A DNA stretch of 41,253 nucleotides. Origin: Thermobrachium celere DSM 8682. Its GTDB lineage: Bacteria; Bacillota; Clostridia; Clostridiales; Caloramatoraceae. Every line of letters starts with the position of its first letter. Position 1 is the first letter of the stretch. The position numbers and the translations under genes were made by a program. Shown here piece by piece: positions 1 through 39,440 of the stretch. The notes below the pieces were generated by a model, which saw nothing but the letters and a program-made list of their open reading frames with translations, ran no database searches and was not told the DNA's origin. The stretch is taken from contig NZ_HF952018.1 in NCBI RefSeq assembly GCF_000430995.1, forward strand, positions 1,491,611-1,532,863. Direction: 5' to 3'.

Positions 1-644
1 GTTGCTGAACCAAATACTTCTCCCCAACTTGAAAAAGGCATGTTAGTTGTAATAATGGTTGAGTGTTTTTCATATCGTTTAGATATTAGTTGAAAAAATA
101 TATTGGCTGTATCTATATCAATAGGTAAATATCCAACTTCATCAATTATTAAAACTTTATATTTTGAAAAATGCTTCAATCTTGCTTCTAAACGGTTTTC
201 AGCTAACGCTTTTTTAAGTTGAGCCATTAGTTCTTGAAAATGAATGAAATAAGTTGAATACCTGTGTTTGGCACATTCAATTCCTAAAGAAGTAGCAAGA
301 TGCGTCTTACCAACACCAGGTGTTCCTACAAACAAAATATTTTCATTATTTTCAACAAATCTTAGACTTTTCAAGTCCAAGATTTGTTGTTTGTTTATAC
401 TTGGTTGAAATTCAAATTCAAAATCATCAATCTCTTTAAGAAATGGAAAGTTAGCTGTTTTTACACAAGCAAGAATGGCTTTTTCTTGCTTTGATTTTAG
501 CTCTAAATTGCTAAGTTCATAAAGAGCATCAATAACACTTTTTTCACCAGAATTAATTAAATTCAGATAAGTATCTATGTTGTTTTTTATATTTATTAGA
601 CCAAGTTCATCTAAATTATTAAGTAGCTTTATATAATTATTCAT
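1..644 (-). CDS. istB: IS21-family helper ATPase IstB, 3' end cut by window edge
   Basis: This is the AAA+ ATPase helper that works with the IstA transposase in target selection of IS21-type elements. Reading the minus strand from the ATG at 644 gives 214 codons without a stop before the window ends. A Walker A motif GTPGVGKTHLA lies near residue 105 and a Walker B stretch VLIIDEVGYLPI near residue 162, followed by a TTNMPF segment that matches the IstB sensor region. The start is supported by a GGTGG Shine-Dalgarno sequence just upstream, and only 13 nt separate it from the stop of istA, the usual istA-istB layout. The reading frame looks intact as far as it can be seen. The element's second end lies outside the window. 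Confidence 0.95.
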   Translation of the reverse strand, partial: MNNYIKLLNNLDELGLINIKNNIDTYLNLINSGEKSVIDALYELSNLELKSKQEKAILACVKTANFPFLKEIDDFEFEFQPSINKQQILDLKSLRFVENNENILFVGTPGVGKTHLATSLGIECAKHRYSTYFIHFQELMAQLKKALAENRLEARLKHFSKYKVLIIDEVGYLPIDIDTANIFFQLISKRYEKHSTIITTNMPFSSWGEVFGSA

Positions 645-657
645 TGAACCACCTTTC

Positions 658-1854
658 CTATAATAAATTATCTAAACGGTTTAAGTTTTCATTACAAATT
701 TGATCTAAATCTTCTGCATTTTTTATAGTATTCTTCATTATTGATTTGTAGTGTTCAGGAAGATAATTCAGTTTTTTATTATTTAATGTATGTACACAAA
801 TCAAATCTGTGTTAAAATATATCTGTAACTCATTATTAACAGCTTTAATGGTTACATTTTTATTTATGTATTTTTCAGGGACGGAGTATCTATTTCCCTT
901 GTAATATATCATGGAATCTTTGTATACTTTTACTTTCTGCTCAAAGTTTAAGTAACTTTCTATGATATTGGTACAAGGTAGAGGGGATAGATACTCCTTT
1001 TCCTTTTGAAATAAAGCTAATGGCGGTATACCGGTAGTTTGACTAACAGATTGATTAACCTTTTTATTAATTTCATTTATTATATTTTTTAATTCTTCTA
1101 TATCTTTAAACTCACCATCATATGGAATTATCCAGTCAATAAATTTATTTGATGATTCTACTTTACCCTTGGTAAATGAATGTCTTGGTTTACATAAAAG
1201 AATTTTGAAACCAAAATCATCAGCAAATGCCTTCATTTTATTATTTACCTTTCTCCTGCCATTTTCTATATCAACTACAGTCTTCATGTTATCAAAGAGT
1301 ATCGACTTTGGAACACCTCCTATTGTTTTAAATGCATTAATTAAGCATTCAAACAGATCTTGTTGAGTCTTAGTTTCTCTTAATTCAAAGTAACAATACC
1401 TTGAAAAACCAAGTTTAAAGTTAAAAACATTGATAATATATTCTTCCCCATATTTTGAAGTTAGCTTAATCTCCTCCTTCCAATCTACTTGAGCTTGCTC
1501 TCCTTCGGGTGTTTCAAATCTTGGATGAGCCATTATTTTTTTGGTTGGTTTTAATCCTTTTCTTTTAACATATTTATTAAAATTTGAATATGTGCCTATA
1601 TCATAACCTTTGCTAACAAAGAATTCATAAACTGCTTTAACAGTAGTTCCTTTAATTGCAAGCTTCGCTTTTATTTCATCGTAATACTTGTCCAATTTAC
1701 TTGTTTTATTTTTAGTTTTTGGTTTTCCCTCATACCCTTCAAAATATTTCTTTACAGTTCTTCTATCCATCCCATATTCTCTTGCAAGTTCTGAATAATT
1801 AGGCTTTAGTTCCATAGCTTTTAATATATTTAATTGAGCTATTATATTCATCAT
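658..1854 (-). CDS. istA: IS21-family transposase IstA
   Basis: This is the DDE transposase of an IS21-family insertion sequence. The frame is open further upstream, but I place the start at the ATG at 1854 because a GGGAGG Shine-Dalgarno sits 8 nt before it, giving 398 residues. An N-terminal helix-turn-helix (ELAREYGMDRRTVKKYF) binds the ends. The catalytic triad is visible: Asp about 124 in VDWK, Asp about 188 in LFDNMKT and Glu about 233 in KGKVESSNK. The C-terminal part carries the KNRYSVP-like segment (KGNRYSVPEKY) common in IstA. Nothing is missing, so the element may be functional if istB is complete outside the window. Confidence 0.96.
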   Translation of the reverse strand: MMNIIAQLNILKAMELKPNYSELAREYGMDRRTVKKYFEGYEGKPKTKNKTSKLDKYYDEIKAKLAIKGTTVKAVYEFFVSKGYDIGTYSNFNKYVKRKGLKPTKKIMAHPRFETPEGEQAQVDWKEEIKLTSKYGEEYIINVFNFKLGFSRYCYFELRETKTQQDLFECLINAFKTIGGVPKSILFDNMKTVVDIENGRRKVNNKMKAFADDFGFKILLCKPRHSFTKGKVESSNKFIDWIIPYDGEFKDIEELKNIINEINKKVNQSVSQTTGIPPLALFQKEKEYLSPLPCTNIIESYLNFEQKVKVYKDSMIYYKGNRYSVPEKYINKNVTIKAVNNELQIYFNTDLICVHTLNNKKLNYLPEHYKSIMKNTIKNAEDLDQICNENLNRLDNLL

Positions 1855-1892
1855 ATTTGGTATCCCTCCCATTAAGAAGGATACCAAATACT

Positions 1893-1952
1893 TGTACAAT
1901 TTTGTACATTTTTATTTTCCACTTTTCGTACATTTTGATTTTATCATTTACA
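1893..1952 (-). repeat. Probable terminal region of the IS21 element
   Basis: Upstream of istA, repeated GTACA(A/T)TTTT-type motifs occur at about 1893-1910 and 1928-1938, including the near-palindrome TGTACAATTTTGTACA. IS21-family ends carry multiple short repeats bound by the transposase and usually begin TGT. Read on the minus strand, a TGTAAATGATAAAATC start at 1952 would fit such an end. The exact boundary is inferred because the partner end is outside the window. Confidence 0.5.
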
Positions 1953-2027
1953 TCTTTTTGCTATGTATATTTTTAGGGTACTCTCCATCATCCGATCTAT
2001 TCATTTAAATCCTTCTTAAATAAGAAA

Positions 2028-2074
2028 GACAGTCATTCTAATCAAATACCCGCCCCAACTATTAACAAAGAACC
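2028..2074. repeat. 47-nt direct repeat, copy 1
   Basis: Sequence from GACAG to AACC with the central core AATACCCGCCCCAACTATT. It matches 3962-4008 at 41 of 47 positions in the same orientation. The GC-rich core stands out in AT-rich surroundings. No function is recognised; it could be a remnant of a duplicated mobile-element segment. Confidence 0.8.
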
Positions 2075-2082
2075 TCAAAAAG

Positions 2083-2138
2083 CAAAAAAGCCCTGATTTC
2101 TCAAGGCTTCTATCTACTGTATCAAAATCATAGTTCAA
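2083..2138. repeat. Distant copy of the ssrA terminator region (att-like repeat, copy A)
   Basis: Two blocks are shared with the sequence directly downstream of ssrA. A 28-nt block (2083-2110) is identical to 5887-5914 and contains a terminator hairpin. A 21-nt block (2118-2138) is identical to 5923-5943. They are separated by 7-8 diverged bases. Same orientation as the copy next to ssrA. Such a repeat flanking a block with a recombinase gene suggests left and right junctions of an integrated element. Confidence 0.8.
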
Positions 2139-2396
2139 ATATGTCTTTAGACGATGTTTTTGATACAATATAGATTTTACTTTTGTAAATTTTTACCCAA
2201 TATCATTATCAAATCATTATTCTATTTATTTTCTCACAATCAAATTATTTTCTCAATTTTGCCAAATGTGATAAAGTCCTATCTAGTCAATTAATTTTAG
2301 TTTCTTACTTTCAACCGAAAAAATGTGATTTTTCCTTGGCAAATACAGTCATTATTCAGGTTTTACTTTCATTTCTACAATTGGATAATCAATATT

Positions 2397-3350
2397 TTAA
2401 GATTTACTCTCTTCTATATACGTATTAGATATAGCTCGAGTGACAATAGTAAATACCCTGCCATCCTTAGTTTTACCTTTGAATATATAATGAGGAATTA
2501 CATATTTTTGTTCATAACCATCTGGATCACTCCATAGAACTAATTCCCAACTCTCTATAGTTCCCTCTTCATCACTATTACTTAAATTATATATTAATGC
2601 CTTACCTTTCTTAATATTTTCAACTGCTTCATCTATAGATATTAATGGATAGTTACCTACTTCCTCTATTTCTCTCCATATAGAACTATAACCAATTATC
2701 TCTCCATTATCTCCAAACCAAACAGAAATTTTTGGTCCTATACCAGTATATTTAATTCCATCAACAGGTTTGCTTTCAAACATTACTTCTACCTTAGCAA
2801 CTGATTGTGTTTCATTACCTTGTTTATCAACAGTACCAATTCTATAACCCTTATTTACTCCTTTAAGTACAATATTGGGTTTTGAAAAACCATATTTATT
2901 TAAAAAGTCACTAGCTAATTTTACATATTCCTCATCTTTTAAAATATTTTTAATTGGTTTAGGCTCTACATCTCCTCGCATTTGTTTTGTAAAATATCTC
3001 TCAGACCCTGTAATTTTATCAACTATTAAATCACCTGTTTCTCCTCTTACTCTAATAATTTTTTTATCTTCGGTAAGTTTTCCTTCGATTCCTAACTTAT
3101 TTGCCTTTTCTTTGATTTGATTAATATCTATTTTAGGAGCCTTCACTTTATATACTTTACACTTTTGAGGAATATTGTTTTTATCAATGCCAATGTTAAG
3201 TTTATTAAAATTCCCACCTGAACCTGTTATACCTAAGGGATTGACTTTGATTTTAACTAGTTTATCATCATTCAAGCTGCCATTACATCCAGATATGAAT
3301 CCAGTAAGGATAATAATTAAAATACACCTCATTAAATTATACTTTTTCAT
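2397..3350 (-). CDS. Predicted lipoprotein of unknown function
   Basis: The 317-residue product starts with a lysine-containing n-region and hydrophobic stretch ending in the lipobox ISGC (Cys22), so it should be exported and lipid-anchored to the membrane. The mature part is hydrophilic, mixed alpha/beta in appearance, with a C-terminal segment (ISIDEAVENIKKGKAL ... YVIPHYIF) that recalls the repeat-like domains of YycH/YycI-type extracytoplasmic regulatory proteins. I cannot claim that identity. A strong GGAGG ribosome site lies before the ATG. It begins 18 nt after the stop of a truncated gene remnant, so it was probably the second gene of an operon whose first gene is mostly lost. It sits within the decayed mobile block. 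Confidence 0.8.
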   Translation of the reverse strand: MKKYNLMRCILIIILTGFISGCNGSLNDDKLVKIKVNPLGITGSGGNFNKLNIGIDKNNIPQKCKVYKVKAPKIDINQIKEKANKLGIEGKLTEDKKIIRVRGETGDLIVDKITGSERYFTKQMRGDVEPKPIKNILKDEEYVKLASDFLNKYGFSKPNIVLKGVNKGYRIGTVDKQGNETQSVAKVEVMFESKPVDGIKYTGIGPKISVWFGDNGEIIGYSSIWREIEEVGNYPLISIDEAVENIKKGKALIYNLSNSDEEGTIESWELVLWSDPDGYEQKYVIPHYIFKGKTKDGRVFTIVTRAISNTYIEESKS

Positions 3351-3368
3351 TGTATTCCTCCTCTCTCT

Positions 3369-3542
3369 TTACCATATGTCTGCCTCATATTTAGAATAAG
3401 CAGATGGATTATTTGAGTATGAAACCATGTCACTTGCAACACTACCAAATCCCCACAAATGATCATTCCATGTTGATGTTGCTCTAAATATCCTTATAGA
3501 ATTCTTATTTACTGCACTTTGAGTATCCCAAGCATAATTATC
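3369..3542 (-). pseudogene. 3' remnant of a lost gene (last 57 codons)
   Basis: An open frame of 57 codons ends in TAA at 3369-3371. It encodes a peptide beginning DNYAWDTQSAVNK and ending SAYSKYEADIW. It is rich in W, S and N, and looks like the C-terminus of a secreted or surface protein. There is no start codon with a ribosome site, and an in-frame TAG immediately upstream (3543-3545) closes it. It lies 18 nt before the lipoprotein gene, as an upstream operon partner would. I read it as the tail of a gene whose 5' part was deleted; the family is not recognised. Confidence 0.55.
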
Positions 3543-4025
3543 CTATGAAAATTTCATTTCTTATTATGTGTACACACACTTATGAAAACTTATTTAGTTA
3601 ATTATATATATATATATCCAGTCAATAATAGTTTTTCTATATTTTACTACGTTATTCTGCATGTGGTAAATAAAAACATTATCTTAATGTTAATCTACCA
3701 ACAACTTATTCATAATTCCATTTAATATAATTTGGCTCCATATAATAAAGGGACATTTAAAAATTCTTTATCTATAATATCCATTTAATTCATTAACCGG
3801 TATTACTATCCCTTATATAAAAAAGAGATTCTATAATAAATGTTTGAGTGGTAAAAAGCCCCATTTTTTATTTAAATACAAAAAAGCACTTTATTCAGAT
3901 GCTAGCTATTTCTTTGGATGATGATTTTGATATAATGGTTCATTTTATAGAATTGTAAAAGGACAGATATTCTAATAGAATACCCGCCCCAACTATTTAC
4001 AAAGAGCCGATATTAATAGCTGTTC
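3543..4025. other. Gene-free AT-rich stretch with repeats
   Basis: No gene is seen. The stretch holds an (AT)n run near 3602-3617 and a GTGTACACAC palindrome near 3568. A weak terminator-like hairpin, AGCA...TGCT followed by T6 on the minus strand, sits at about 3880-3904. A diverged relative of 2130-2190 (GATGATTTTGATATAATG) lies near 3918-3936, and the second copy of the 47-nt repeat is at 3962-4008. Confidence 0.55.
3962..4008. repeat. 47-nt direct repeat, copy 2
   Basis: Second copy of the 47-nt repeat at 2028-2074, same orientation, six mismatches. It lies just downstream of the small membrane-protein gene that ends at 4026. Here the terminator-like hairpin and TTTGATA motif lie to its left, whereas in copy 1 they lie to its right, as if both are pieces of a longer rearranged unit. 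Confidence 0.8.
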
Positions 4026-4301
4026 TTACCTTTTACCCTTGTTTCTTAATACAGTATTAATCAAACAAATAATACTTAAAGTAGCTATTGTAAAAATAGT
4101 TGACCAAAATAAAGCTGTAAGTATAAAATTTAATAATAAATCTTTTTTATCTAAGTATTCAAAATACATTTTATAAACTAGAAACTTATTTATTGTTGGC
4201 CCATCAAAAGGAATATATTGAAGTCGTAACTTTGGTATAAATATAAGTAAGTAAATTACCTCCATTAGTATTCCTAATATCGCATATACTTTTATTCTCA
4301 T
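4026..4301 (-). CDS. Small two-helix membrane protein of unknown function
   Basis: The 91-residue product has one hydrophobic segment near residues 5-23 (YAILGILMEVIYLLIFI) and a second near 58-83 (FILTALFWSTIFTIATLSI), with a charged KNKGKR-like tail. It should be a small integral membrane protein. The ATG is preceded by GAGAGGG at a suitable distance. A short open frame ends 16 nt upstream, suggesting it was once second in an operon. No family is recognised, and being in a decayed block it may no longer be expressed. Confidence 0.6.
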   Translation of the reverse strand: MRIKVYAILGILMEVIYLLIFIPKLRLQYIPFDGPTINKFLVYKMYFEYLDKKDLLLNFILTALFWSTIFTIATLSIICLINTVLRNKGKR

Positions 4302-4317
4302 ATAAACCCTCTCAACT

Positions 4318-4401
4318 TTATTTTATATTTTCATCTTCTAAAGCATTAACAAAACCAGTAGCATCAATATCGTTAAAATTATCCACAATTTTAATTTTCA
4401 T
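4318..4401 (-). pseudogene. Very short open frame, probable gene tail
   Basis: A 27-codon frame from an ATG at 4401 encodes MKIKIVDNFNDIDATGFVNA and a few more residues. The frame continues open for about 19 codons upstream of the ATG before a TAA, and no ribosome site precedes the ATG. Its stop is 16 nt before the membrane-protein start, a spacing typical of consecutive operon genes. It is most simply the C-terminal stump of a lost gene, though a small real peptide cannot be excluded. Confidence 0.3.
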
Positions 4402-4639
4402 ATTCTGCACGCATCTAATACTATAATTCTTAAGTATGTGCACACACTTGTTTGCTATTTACTGTATTTTCTATTTTACCTCTATATACCAATTATATCA
4501 ATAATAAATTTCCAACTAATTACTATATAATTCTACATATGTTTAACTTAATAAATCCATTTATACTTTTCAAAACACAATAAATCACCCACAAAGCCAG
4601 CTACATCTTTAGCCAACCTTGTGGTTGTTAATAACCACG

Positions 4640-5826
4640 CTATATATCCCATTCCACTTCCATTCCATCCTTAAACACAAAAGATATTTTCCCTTCCCTT
4701 TTTACAACCACCCTATCAACTACTCCTATCCAAAGTTCCTCATCAAACTCTGTAACTAAACCTTCTCTTGATTCAAGTTCCTTAATAAACTCTAAAATTT
4801 TCTCCTTCTTTGCAGTTTGCTCTAATCGTTTCTCCTCTATCCTTTCAAGTTCCTCTTTAAAACTTTCATGCCTTTCAACTGGTGCATCATATTTTTCGTT
4901 ATAATCTTCTTGGTTTAAAGCTTTATGAGCATTTTCCTCTACACATTTTCTAATTATTTCAGTAACTATTTCTAATTCGCTTTGTAGCTTAACACTTTCC
5001 ATATCAAGCTTTGTAGTATCTGTTAAGGATTGTATGATATCTTCATATCCTTTTAAAATTTCTTCCTTATTATTAATCAAGCTATTGAATACTTCAACGA
5101 AAGCCTTCTTTATTTTATCCTCATAAAGATGTGGTGTGGTGCACTTTTTATCATTCTTAAACTTAGAGTTACACTGCCATATAACTCTTCTATATTTACT
5201 ATTAGAATGCCAAACCTTTCTGCCATAAAAACTTCCACATTCGCCACATACAATCTTTCCTGAAAAGCAGCTACCTCCTGTTTTATATCCCTTTACTTCT
5301 TTTCTCTTTTTTATCTCAGTCTGAACTAAATCAAATAATTCAGGTGGTATAATTGGAGGATGGCTATTTTCAACATAATACTGTGGAACTTCTCCTTCGT
5401 TTTTCTTTCTTTTCTTAGTTAGAAAATCTAGTGTTAAAGTCTTTTGAAGAATTGCATCACCTTTGTATTTTTCGTTTTGAAGAATACTTAAAACTGTGCT
5501 TGGTGTCATTTATTTTTACCTGCTGGTGTTGAAATATTATTCTCTGTTAAATATTCAGCTATACTTAATGGCGTTTTGCCTTCTAAAAAAATTTTATATA
5601 TCATTCTTACAATCTTTGCTTCTTCCTCAACAATCTTTAAAACTCCATCTTCTCCTTTTTCATATCCTAAAAAATGCTTGTATGGAAGGCTCACCTTTCT
5701 ATCTGCAAATCTTTTTCTTTGTCCCCATGTTACATTTTCACTTATTGACCTTGATTCTTCTTGTGCTAAAGAACTCATTATTGTTTTTAAAACTTCTTCC
5801 ATGATATCTAAAGTATAAATGTTTCC
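4640..5826 (-). pseudogene. Large serine recombinase, N-terminally truncated and frameshifted
   Basis: Two adjacent frames together encode most of a large serine recombinase (resolvase/invertase superfamily), the enzyme type that integrates and excises clostridial mobile elements. The upstream frame (about 5506-5826) holds the end of the catalytic domain (SSLAQEESRSISENVTWGQ) and the start of the recombinase domain. The downstream frame (4640-5509) holds the zinc ribbon (KIVCGECGSFYGRK ... WQCNSK ... CTTPHL) and the coiled-coil region. The family usually continues GKNKWTPSTV; here AAATGACACC would read through as AAATGGACACC, so a single G appears lost at about 5507. The first 100 or so residues, including the catalytic serine, are absent. 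It cannot encode an active enzyme. Confidence 0.88.
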
Positions 5827-5850
5827 ATTTTAGTTACTCTATTTTAATTA

Positions 5851-5866
5851 ATTCCTCTCGCCTCCA
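5851..5866 (+). repeat. Inverted copy of the tmRNA 3' end
   Basis: ATTCCTCTCGCCTCCA on the plus strand matches the tmRNA 3' end ATTCCCCTCGCCTCCA (minus strand, 5949-5964) at 15 of 16 positions, in inverted orientation and about 80 nt away. tRNA and tmRNA 3' ends are classic integration sites, so this looks like a relic of an attachment site. Confidence 0.6.
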
Positions 5867-5886
5867 AGCAAATTAAAACTACAAAA

Positions 5887-5943
5887 CAAAAAAGCCCTGA
5901 TTTCTCAAGGCTTCATACACATTGTATCAAAATCATAGTTCAA
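5887..5943. repeat. ssrA-adjacent copy of the att-like direct repeat (copy B)
   Basis: This copy abuts the 3' end of ssrA and shares 28-nt and 21-nt identical blocks with 2083-2138. It includes the ssrA terminator. The serine recombinase pseudogene ends only about 60 nt away. Confidence 0.8.
5888..5913 (-). terminator. Rho-independent terminator of ssrA
   Basis: On the minus strand AAGCCTTGA-GAAA-TCAGGGCTT forms a 9-bp stem with a GNRA-like loop, followed by T6. It lies about 33 nt beyond the tmRNA 3' end. An identical hairpin occurs at 2084-2109. Confidence 0.9.
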
Positions 5944-5945
5944 TA

Positions 5946-6297
5946 TGGTGGAGGCGAGGGGAATCGAACCCCTGTCCGAAGGAGTAGCCATCCAGGCATC
6001 TCCGAGCGCAGTCAGTGTTTTGACATTCCCTCCATCTGACTCCCACTGACAGGATTCAGACTTCAGTAGCTTCATAGATGCCGACCTATCGCAAAGCTTA
6101 GATAGGCCCGTTCCCCACTAGTCGACGCCCTATCTCAGGCCGTGGGCCTCCCGAGTAGGACGGCTACCTGTTATTAGGCAGCTAGAGCTAGATTATCGTT
6201 TGCGTTTATTTTTACTCCCAGTTTTTTTACGAGGTACCGGGGTCCTCGGCTCGCTTCCTGAACCACTACCTCCCCCGTCGAAATCCTAGACGCCCCC
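5946..6297 (-). ncRNA. ssrA: Transfer-messenger RNA (tmRNA)
   Basis: This is the tRNA-like and mRNA-like RNA that rescues stalled ribosomes together with SmpB. The 5' end GGGGGCG pairs over 7 bp with CGCCTCC just before the encoded ACCA at the 3' end (CCA at 5946-5948). The T arm GGTTCGATTCC and the conserved 5' GGATTTCGACGG region are present. The tag-coding segment at 6171-6203 reads ANDNLALAA followed by two stop codons. The length of 352 nt is normal. It starts 3 nt after the smpB stop, a common arrangement, and ends in a strong terminator. Its downstream side is flanked by repeats that suggest use as an integration site. Confidence 0.98.
6171..6203 (-). other. tmRNA tag reading frame
   Basis: From GCA at 6203 the codons read A-N-D-N-L-A-L-A-A and then TAA TAA. 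The C-terminal ALAA is the degron recognised by ClpXP-type proteases. GCA as resume codon is inferred by alignment with the E. coli tmRNA, where the tag also starts GCA AAC. Confidence 0.85.
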
Positions 6298-6300
6298 ATG

Positions 6301-6765
6301 TTAGTAGCGGTACTTTTCTTTAAAATGTTTTTCAATTTCCCTCATTGCATCTCTCTTTGCAATGTCTTCTCTCTTATCATACAGCTTCTTACCTTTTGCA
6401 AGTGCAAGCTGCATTTTAACTAATCCTCTTTTTTGATATAGTGATAGTGGAATAAGTGTATATCCCTTTTGTGATACTAAACCAGCAAGTCTTCTAATTT
6501 CACTTTTATGCATTAAGAGCCTTCTTGGTCTTAGTGGATCTTTATTAAATATGTTTCCCTTTTCATATGGGCTTATATGGAGATTGTATACATAAAGCTC
6601 TCCATTTTTAACTTCTGCATAGCTATCTTTCAAATTAGCTTTTCCTAGCTTTACTGATTTTACTTCTGTACCTACAAGCTCAATTCCTGCTTCATAAGTT
6701 TCTTCAATGAAATAATCGTGTCTTGCTTTTCTATTCTCTGCTAATGTCTTAATTTGATCCTTCAT
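6301..6765 (-). CDS. smpB: SsrA-binding protein SmpB
   Basis: SmpB binds the tRNA-like domain of tmRNA and brings it to stalled ribosomes. The product has the family's beta-barrel core with [20 protein letters not shown] at the N-terminus, GTEVKSVK, and the basic C-terminal tail ([21 protein letters not shown]) that enters the empty mRNA channel. I choose the ATG at 6765 (154 residues) over a GTG four codons earlier, because GGTGAT lies at a suitable distance before the ATG and nothing suitable precedes the GTG. It is followed within 3 nt by ssrA, its RNA partner, and preceded by two sigma-A promoters. Confidence 0.97.
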
Positions 6766-34429: not shown

Positions 34430-35731
34430 TTATTCAAATACTGTTTGTTCTTCAACAGGGGTTTGCAATGCCTTTAGAGCTTTTTCAACTAACTTTCTTC
34501 TAAGATGCTTTTCATCTTCATATGATAGATTTGGATTTCCAAGTGGATGTGGAATTGCTACAGTTGGAACTATTCTATTTGCACCAACTGTCTTTGAAAT
34601 TGGAACAATTGTACACATGTGAACTACAGGCAATCCAGCCCTTTCAATTTCCTTAACCATCGTTGCACCGCAACGAGTACAAGTACCTCAAGTAGAAGTT
34701 AATATAACTGCTTGAACTCCATCTGCTATAAGCTCTCTTGCTATTTGTTGTCCAAATCTCTTTGCATTTGCAACTGCTGTTCCGTTACCAACTGTTGCAT
34801 AATAGTATTTATGAAGTTCTCCTATCTTTCCTTCTCTTTCAAGTTCTCTTAAAACATCAACTGGAAGTACTCTATCAGCATCTTTATTTGCATATACAGG
34901 GTCATATCCACCATGTGCTGTTTCAAATGTTTCACTAGTTAAGTCGTTTACACCTTCTATGCTATATTTTCCAAACTTTGATGCACTTGAAGATTCTATC
35001 TTATCTGGATTACCCTTTGGTACTATACCTCCAGATGTTACAAGAGCAATTTTTGCCTTAGTTATATCTAAAACTGGTGGATTTGGTGCTACTCTATCAA
35101 AATCTGGCATCTTAAATTCAGTTTTAAATTCTTCGCCTCTTATCTTCTTAATGAGCATATCTACTGCTCTCTTTGATCCTCTCTCTTCAGCAAAGTAGTT
35201 CTTTCTAATTCCTCTTTCAATATATCCTTCTTCTTCAGGACTTCCTATCTCTTCATTATTTACAAGCTTTAATGCTAAATCTGCCATCTTAGGAATTGCT
35301 TCTCTCATACCTGCAGCACTATCTTTTGTTGATATGATGTAAAGATCCTTCTTATAAAGATCAACACCGGGATTTTCAATATACATACCTGTTACAACTG
35401 GTATATTAAGTTTTTCTTTAACATATTTACATATGCTACCGCATGCATTACCATATCTTCCAGCATTAAAGGCTGGTCCTGCTATAAATAAATCAGGTTG
35501 GTATTGTTTTACCATTTCAAGAATTGTTTCTTTTGCCTTTTCTTCATTTTCAGCAAAGTATGAGTCACCACAAATTATAGTAGCAACTATTTGTGCTTGT
35601 CCTTTAAATGCAGCATTTAATGCCATACCAGGACCTACAAATCCTTCTTTTACAAATGGCTCAATGTGTGCCTTTTCTTCTCCCCCTATTTGTCCAAAGA
35701 ACTGATTCAAATAATGAACAACCTTAATCAT
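34430..35731 (-). CDS. grdB: Glycine reductase component B, selenoprotein subunit
   Basis: GrdB is the substrate-activating selenoprotein of protein B. The frame runs 433 residues when the in-frame TGA at 34688-34690 is read as selenocysteine (residue 348). The context is VILTST-U-GTCTRCGAT, matching the known UxxCxxC motif. After the Sec, MCTIVPISKTVGANRIVP and AIPHPLGNP are family hallmarks. A compact hairpin follows the TGA. The ribosome site is GGGGAGGTGGGAT. Reading the TGA as stop would wrongly split it in two. It lies between grdA and grdC. Confidence 0.97.
34661..34675 (-). promoter_or_regulatory. Candidate bacterial SECIS hairpin of grdB
   Basis: On the minus strand CGTTGC-GGT-GCAACG forms a 6-bp stem 12 nt after the TGA codon, with G residues in the loop as in bacterial SECIS elements bound by SelB. 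Confidence 0.8.
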
Positions 35732-39289: not shown

Positions 39290-39440
39290 AAAAAAAGGAC
39301 GTAGTTGCCTACATCCTCTGCTGCCACAGAGTTCTGTCCACAAATAGTACTTTTGCCTGAGAGTATCATAAAACTTGGCGAGTTTTACTTACCCCTTCGG
39401 CGCCCTTTCGGGTCTCTCCTATTTGCTTCATCCAGACAAT
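39290..39440 (-). promoter_or_regulatory. Glycine riboswitch (single aptamer) with terminator, upstream of grdX
   Basis: On the minus strand the conserved glycine aptamer elements appear in order: GGAGAGACCCGAAAGGGCGC, then GCCGAAGGGGTAAG, then ACTCTCAGGCAAAAG, then GGACAG. P1 pairs CAAATAG (39419-39425) with CTATTTG (39341-39347). A short hairpin CTCTG...CAGAG follows instead of a full second aptamer. The terminator GGATGTAG-GCAA-CTACGTCC plus T7 lies at 39290-39316. Glycine binding presumably prevents termination so that the glycine-using operon is transcribed; the direction is inferred from the gene function. Confidence 0.95.

Follow-up and report, generated by a model that had tools for sequence, protein, structure and literature searches.

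How did a block of DNA lying just outside ssrA, the gene for transfer-messenger RNA (tmRNA), come to be present a second time a few kilobases further on? The question is posed by a 41,253-nucleotide stretch of the genome of Thermobrachium celere DSM 8682 (hereafter the window; contig NZ_HF952018.1, positions 1,491,611 to 1,532,863), in which two copies of the block enclose genes and gene remnants downstream of ssrA. The window very probably holds what is left, after decay, of one mobile element or two, inserted at the 3' end of ssrA by two large serine recombinases (LSRs) encoded in tandem, LSR1 and LSR2. Read from sequence, the signs that point this way are an attachment (att) structure shared between loci, a base-exact junction, a link to the recombinase pair, a covarying terminator, and decay. 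LSR1 and LSR2 presumably catalysed the integration, with the dinucleotide CA as the likely site of crossover.

The repeat and its att-like structure

Comparison of positions 1900-6320 with the window by BLASTN gave, as top non-self match, 2079-2143 against 5883-5947 (89.4% identity over 66 bp, E 9.7e-17), which bears out the preliminary description of two blocks recurring in the same order and orientation. The terminator block is identical in the two copies (Table 1), as is a 21-nt block at 2118-2138 and 5923-5943. Since ssrA lies on the minus strand, both copies read downstream of it. The copy distal to ssrA (copy A) contains more than the repeat itself: an imperfect palindrome of about 50 bp (2115-2170), whose left arm (LARM) and right arm (RARM) measure 25 nt each and are 80% complementary. 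Copy A thus carries LARM, RARM and terminator, while the ssrA side (copy B) is without LARM and has the CCA end of the tmRNA in its place; there, RARM begins with the last two tmRNA bases, CA. The att sites of large serine recombinases are imperfect palindromes of about 40-50 bp around a dinucleotide, and LARM-CA-RARM has this form. The repeat is evidently RARM plus a terminator hairpin, and not simply a copied ssrA terminator.

Genes for tRNA and tmRNA are a usual target of conventional islands carrying a tyrosine integrase, according to the Islander abstract (PMC4383910), and such an island in ssrA would have duplicated the tmRNA 3' end. However, BLASTN finds no direct repeat of that end within 1900-6320 and the recombinase between the copies is a serine recombinase, so that an origin of this kind is scarcely credible.

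Within the whole genome (2.64 Mb, 55 contigs), a search allowing up to three mismatches finds the terminator block at three places, against none for a backwards control. Two of these are the window copies and the third lies on a 3.8-kb scaffold (C28). This scaffold, which consists mostly of N, matches window positions 1978-2331 at 98.9% before diverging into other DNA; it may be a second copy, a strain variant or a mis-scaffold. Megablast of 1900-6310 against plasmids gave no match.

Junctions at the CA dinucleotide

The loci of relatives were compared by BLASTN, considering the 80 longest alignments that end at most 40 bp from, or span, the presumed crossover. Among the alignments listed, five between an array of cassettes and an ssrA flank start at offset 0 from CA. 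When a cassette from the Caloramator australicus RC3 array (G005) is set against the ssrA flank of Caloramator proteoclasticus DSM 10124 (G001), identity left of CA is 44% over 60 bp, whereas to the right there is one mismatch in 281 bp, at base 258. Site-specific recombination is expected to leave just such a trace: partners that differ on the left and agree on the right, with a boundary exact to the base. The same C. australicus cassette, which encodes a SEC-C protein, also stands directly after ssrA in genome G010 (1631 bp, 86.8%, offset 0), and most of it is found in C. proteoclasticus contig C75 as well.

Among the 17 genomes of the family, 16 gave an ssrA match (G003 gave none). Two of these do not enter the flank count: in G002 the contig ends inside the match, and G015 has a 35-bp match without an Rfam tmRNA. 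Of the 14 with identified ssrA and readable 3' flank, 12 have RARM or a RARM-like sequence followed by a terminator, namely T. celere itself (G000), G001, G004-G011 (among them Caloramator sp. SKW256, G008, and a diverged version in G007), G013 and Fonticella tunisiensis (G014). The genus group of T. celere is that of C. proteoclasticus, and a query of flank plus ssrA (5880-6310) found matches in four of the five genus genomes, T. celere included. Across the class, a pattern of ssrA followed by RARM with a gap range of 12-18 matched 16 of 243 genomes, with no control match; by eye, nine of the 16 (T. celere again included) look like RARM plus terminator.

The remaining two family genomes, G012 and G016, have unrelated ssrA flanks. 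In G016 a group I intron (Rfam RF00028, L097:1234-1512) interrupts the tmRNA gene; the tmRNA 3' end of G012 is displaced in much the same way, with no intron called. Several copies of the structure are followed, about 20-25 nt past the T-run, by an inverted sequence much like the ssrA 3' end (CTTGGAGGCGAGGGGAATTGAA or a close variant), as in the window at 5847-5865 (minus strand), at L056:7504-7522 and at L062:7663-7681. A candidate for the native right half of attB, labelled tail a, was dropped, being absent from the G012 and G016 flanks.

Could RARM and its terminator have belonged to ssrA from the start, the other copies having arisen when homologous or illegitimate events duplicated the flank of the gene? 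Its presence at 12 of the 14 family ssrA genes would fit, and some copies closely resemble the ssrA flank of their own genome. On the other hand, the homology of the five array/ssrA alignments sets in precisely at CA rather than within the tmRNA, full copies away from ssrA carry the left palindrome arm that is absent at ssrA, and the same design with other terminator sequences stands beside LSR pairs in distant Clostridia. Duplication of the flank is therefore improbable.

The terminator as a probable part of the element

The hairpin was followed at 22 sites, picked by locus and listed only if the folding energy (dG) after RARM was below -7, a threshold passed by 19% of 440 random 48-mers. Fourteen of these sites were aligned; the eight left out are L134, which duplicates another site, and seven whose hairpin differs in shape or length or whose sequence is more distant. 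Every stem cell of the alignment is paired (140/140), seven of the ten pairs have changed on both sides, and covariation is 0.630 against 0.298 in shuffles. As the hairpin is kept while its sequence changes, the terminator seems to be part of the element design. RARM and terminator together most likely make up the left end of the element itself.

Link to a tandem recombinase pair

The features that the preliminary description had placed between the copies, a lipoprotein-like open reading frame (ORF), a membrane-like ORF and a broken serine recombinase, are all there. Compared with an intact relative of 545 aa, the window recombinase (LSR2) retains residues 144-252 at 5497-5823 and residues 252-537 at 4643-5500, in two frames, and is 88-90% identical to the intact C. 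proteoclasticus protein (88% over query residues 4-289). What faces ssrA is its truncated N-terminal side, which corrects the earlier view that the gene ends at the ssrA-side copy. In C. proteoclasticus the intact pair is in tandem, with LSR1 of 409 aa and LSR2 of 545 aa and with Resolvase, Recombinase and Zn-ribbon domains, and intact LSR relatives lie 1.5 kb before a unit, as the palindrome with its terminator is called here.

Relatives of LSR2 were collected from GTDB contigs (80 loci kept of 222) and viral contigs (80 kept of 267). LSR1 was matched as well in 72 of the 80 GTDB loci, and both recombinases are present in 74 of the 80 viral ones. LSR pairs of Clostridium vincentii, Clostridium sp. 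DSM 17811 and uncultured Clostridia have the arrangement LARM-CA-RARM-terminator on their downstream side. Searched for as a pattern, the palindrome matched 17 times on the plus strand and twice on the minus strand of 80 LSR loci (1.23 Mb), against 0-2 plus-strand matches in each of 10 shuffles; some of the 17 are the Caloramator sites that supplied the pattern. Fifteen of them lie beyond an LSR2 end and two inside LSR2 (L209, L219), and the match at L163:17373 looks like chance. ARAGORN found a tmRNA near the LSR genes in four of 40 loci scanned (taken from the 80), in Ruminiclostridium sufflavum (G243), Syntrophomonas wolfei, Dethiobacter and Fonticella.

A nearly complete arrangement is on CALGKJ010000043 (G324), a contig of a metagenome-assembled genome, where ssrA joined to RARM-terminator is followed by LSR1-LSR2 and then by LARM joined to RARM-terminator, the distance between the two CA dinucleotides being 21,875 bp; from CA on, the two ends share 185 bp at 89%. 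This 21.9-kb stretch is evidently the window arrangement with the recombinase pair present. In G010 the order is ssrA, SEC-C cassette, head protease, major head, adaptor, tail, holin, endolysin, partial LSR1 and intact LSR2, and the stretch after ssrA is a prophage remnant. Among phage records, the closest relatives of LSR2 are in gut phages and Streptococcus phages, including phi1207.3 (53.7% identity).

Two side observations concern the recombinase loci. Paired GGGTGTGCA-like motifs, 20-30 bp apart, lie about 135-177 bp inside the left end of elements of three different Clostridia (L166:15559 and 15579; L168:15690 and 15710; L266:13870 and 13900) and are possible accessory sites. In L093 (minus strand, from 1927) and at L124:1601, the terminator is followed immediately by open frames that begin MAAISHITF or MAALSHITF and are in frame with an LSR2 that is without the catalytic domain, giving 230 and 326 aa to the locus end; these could be DNA-binding-only proteins.

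Units away from ssrA

The unit is present in 12 of the 17 family genomes at E 1e-4. Sixteen full units of the fetched loci were used to build a profile, and match it by construction; in the fetched family loci this profile gave 42 rows: 10 at ssrA, 31 elsewhere and one reverse self-hit of the palindrome. Many unlinked copies, which the preliminary description had named beforehand as evidence against integration, do exist in two sister genomes (G001, G004); yet recombinase sequence lies at most 300 bp to the right of 10 of the 31 non-ssrA units, which is unexpected for a plain repeat.

These copies raise a further alternative, in which the unit is a dispersed repeat, a miniature inverted-repeat transposable element or a preferred landing site of insertion sequences (IS) of the ISL3 family, spread by transposition and with no tie to a serine recombinase. 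Apart from the many copies in G001 and G004, it could draw on ISL3 ends that abut or lie near many units, copy A included, and on the 21 non-ssrA units that have no recombinase sequence close by. But several units have no ISL3 end in the displayed context, units in other Clostridia sit downstream of LSR2, and the LSR pair of the 21.9-kb stretch is enclosed by att repeats on either side; spread by transposition is very unlikely.

In G004, more than 120 kb (C1, 1536912-1658454) contains co-oriented units and recombinase genes or relics. At L059:4886-4955, also in G004, the left half of a unit resembles the ssrA 3' end (GGTTCAATTCCCTCGCCTCCAGCA) in a locus without a called tRNA or tmRNA gene; this is a possible secondary attB.

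A possible route to the present locus

Integration at ssrA could have proceeded as follows. The element would carry attP, the palindrome LARM-CA-RARM followed by the terminator, and the tmRNA 3' end (..CGCCTCCAC followed by CA) would supply the attB half. Exchange at CA would leave ssrA intact and join it to RARM and the terminator, and in this way the element would supply the ssrA terminator. The far end of the element would become LARM, CA and the RARM-terminator of the neighbouring element. Later elements would recombine with the hybrid on the ssrA side, pushing older ones outwards and creating tandem LARM-RARM junctions, until repeated insertion had produced tandem cassettes with a terminator ahead of each. 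In the window, decay may have involved a deletion between the element left end and LSR2 codon 144, then a frameshift and then IS invasion. Loss of the left part reaching into the recombinase would give the state of the window, of G011 and of the decayed G004 units. Small cassettes that are without an intact recombinase may move in trans.

The claim of integration made in the preliminary description thus stands in that a decayed element with a serine recombinase lies downstream of ssrA, but the target is not the terminator flank; the crossover probably took place at the final CA. This would account for the position of the duplicated block beyond the tmRNA gene, as crossover would occur at the CCA end and the covarying terminator of the element would take over. 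If true, a mobile element makes use of an essential RNA gene without harm by bringing a new stop signal, and leaves a readable scar of the kind seen in the 12 family genomes. As far as is known, nearly all bacteria have ssrA. Together, the two att sites and the two recombinases are a candidate integration tool with this gene as its target.

Several observations weigh against integration by the recombinase pair. Neither an empty ssrA site in a close strain nor a circular form was seen. A few other array/ssrA alignments start 3 to 15 bases off the presumed crossover, about seven of the 16 class-level ssrA matches resemble ordinary terminators or coding DNA or are doubtful, and 21 of the 31 non-ssrA units are without recombinase sequence within 300 bp on the right. 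In the viral loci the palindrome pattern has no strand excess (five plus, six minus); those judged real by eye are L277 (the C. proteoclasticus copy), L279, L282 on the plus strand, L295 and perhaps L309, and the rest are not. The units of the G004 array (1.537-1.658 Mb) lie far from ssrA (2.695 Mb), so rearrangement or other attB sites are needed. Intact pairs stand toward the right end of the element (G324, C42; LSR2 in G010) and the recombinase at the left end in the window, G011 and Fonticella, a position that an internal deletion would explain. Finally, rows with the att/ssrA label are dispersed over a tree of 146 LSR2 proteins (19 rows, 16 changes); label shuffles give a mean of 18.0 changes, with 41 of 500 as low as 16. 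A single origin of ssrA targeting is not shown by this tree, in which many loci end before any att site could appear.

A DegV gene considered as anchor for an empty site was dropped. The order around it in G001 differs from that in T. celere, and its other close matches are on a different contig from ssrA or about 1 Mb away (G004).

Features of the window

The coordinates are collected in Table 1. The lipoprotein-like ORF was found in one of the 17 family genomes at E 1e-10, that of T. celere, and neither cargo ORF has a family match in Pfam, NCBIfam or PADLOC. In L058, the transposase ORF beside a matching IS end is DDE_Tnp_ISL3. The second ISL3-family end lies 9 bp beyond copy A. The IS21-family ORFs are later damage outside the island, and further pieces of the element lie elsewhere in the genome. 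Rfam also matched SECIS_4 (34650-34687) and the glycine riboswitch (39335-39431) on the minus strand of the window.

Table 1. Features at the ssrA end of the window
Feature	Position	Strand	Basis
ssrA (tmRNA)	5946..6297	-	ARAGORN, Rfam RF00023
Terminal CA of ssrA, presumed crossover core	5946-5947	-	boundary from flank comparisons across relatives
RARM, ssrA-side (attL) half-site: right palindrome arm joined to tmRNA CCA end	5923..5947	-	
Terminator hairpin and T-run, copy B; read as carried by left end of element	5888..5914	-	fold, covariation
Tail like ssrA 3' end, inverted; also after other units	5847..5865	-	pattern, 3 mismatches
Broken large serine recombinase LSR2, frameshifted, without catalytic domain	4640..5823	-	tblastn; Pfam Recombinase, Zn_ribbon_recom
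Small membrane-like ORF, read as first-cassette cargo	4026..4301	-	
ISL3-family element end (relic)	3959..4008	-	
LARM (left palindrome arm) standing alone, probably a decayed att site that separates two cassettes	3911..3935	-	
Lipoprotein-like ORF, read as second-cassette cargo	2397..3350	-	
LARM of distal att copy A	2144..2168	-	
RARM of copy A, starting with CA core	2118..2143	-	
Terminator of copy A	2084..2110	-	fold
Second ISL3-family relic end	2025..2074	-	
IS21-family istB/istA ORFs left of copy A	3..1899	-	Pfam IstB_IS21, rve, Mu-transpos_C_2

Comparison with known systems

No report of this recombinase family at ssrA in Clostridia was found in the literature searched, outside of which most subscription papers lie. 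A more far-reaching idea, which we put forward only tentatively and which may well be wrong, is that of an integron counterpart run by serine recombinases. Small gene cassettes of about 1-3 kb, which have no intact recombinase but do have a palindromic att site and a terminator of their own, would be lined up downstream of ssrA and elsewhere and be moved in trans between species by the LSR1/LSR2 of resident prophages; the terminator would insulate the essential tmRNA gene and each cassette, and would have replaced the native ssrA terminator across most of the family. With respect to integron cassette arrays, the linked recombinases seen here are serine recombinases, and no search for IntI was made.

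Among known prophages, phi1207.3 has two serine recombinases at its right end after the lysis genes, which recalls the order in G010, but it integrates at a GA dinucleotide in comEC (PMC4260502). The staphylococcal cassette chromosome mec (SCCmec) and the Enterococcus cassette chromosome (ECC) share with the present elements a large serine recombinase pair, a conserved gene whose 3' end receives the insertion, and att sites of about 50 bp. Dyad symmetry is described for attR and the circular att in the consulted sections of the source (PMC6222049). In the window, both arms are present in copy A and RARM alone on the ssrA side, and no circular form was seen. Those sections mention no terminator in the att site. 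The target there is rlmH and here ssrA, and the NCBIfam CcrB model gives 136.1 bits for LSR1 and 127.2 for LSR2, compared with a cut-off of 900.

Closest in target are the ssrA genomic islands of Dehalococcoides with DsiB/DsiA (McMurdie et al. 2011, PMC3146451). The likeness extends to the ssrA target, a large serine recombinase that resembles CcrB, islands lying in tandem downstream of ssrA and the fact that some islands are without an integration module. The elements discussed here differ from those islands in that LSR1 has 409 aa with Recombinase and Zn-ribbon domains, in that the repeat lies outside ssrA save for CA, with no duplicated ssrA end beyond it, and in that the crossover appears to fall at the final CA, with the terminator in the repeat.

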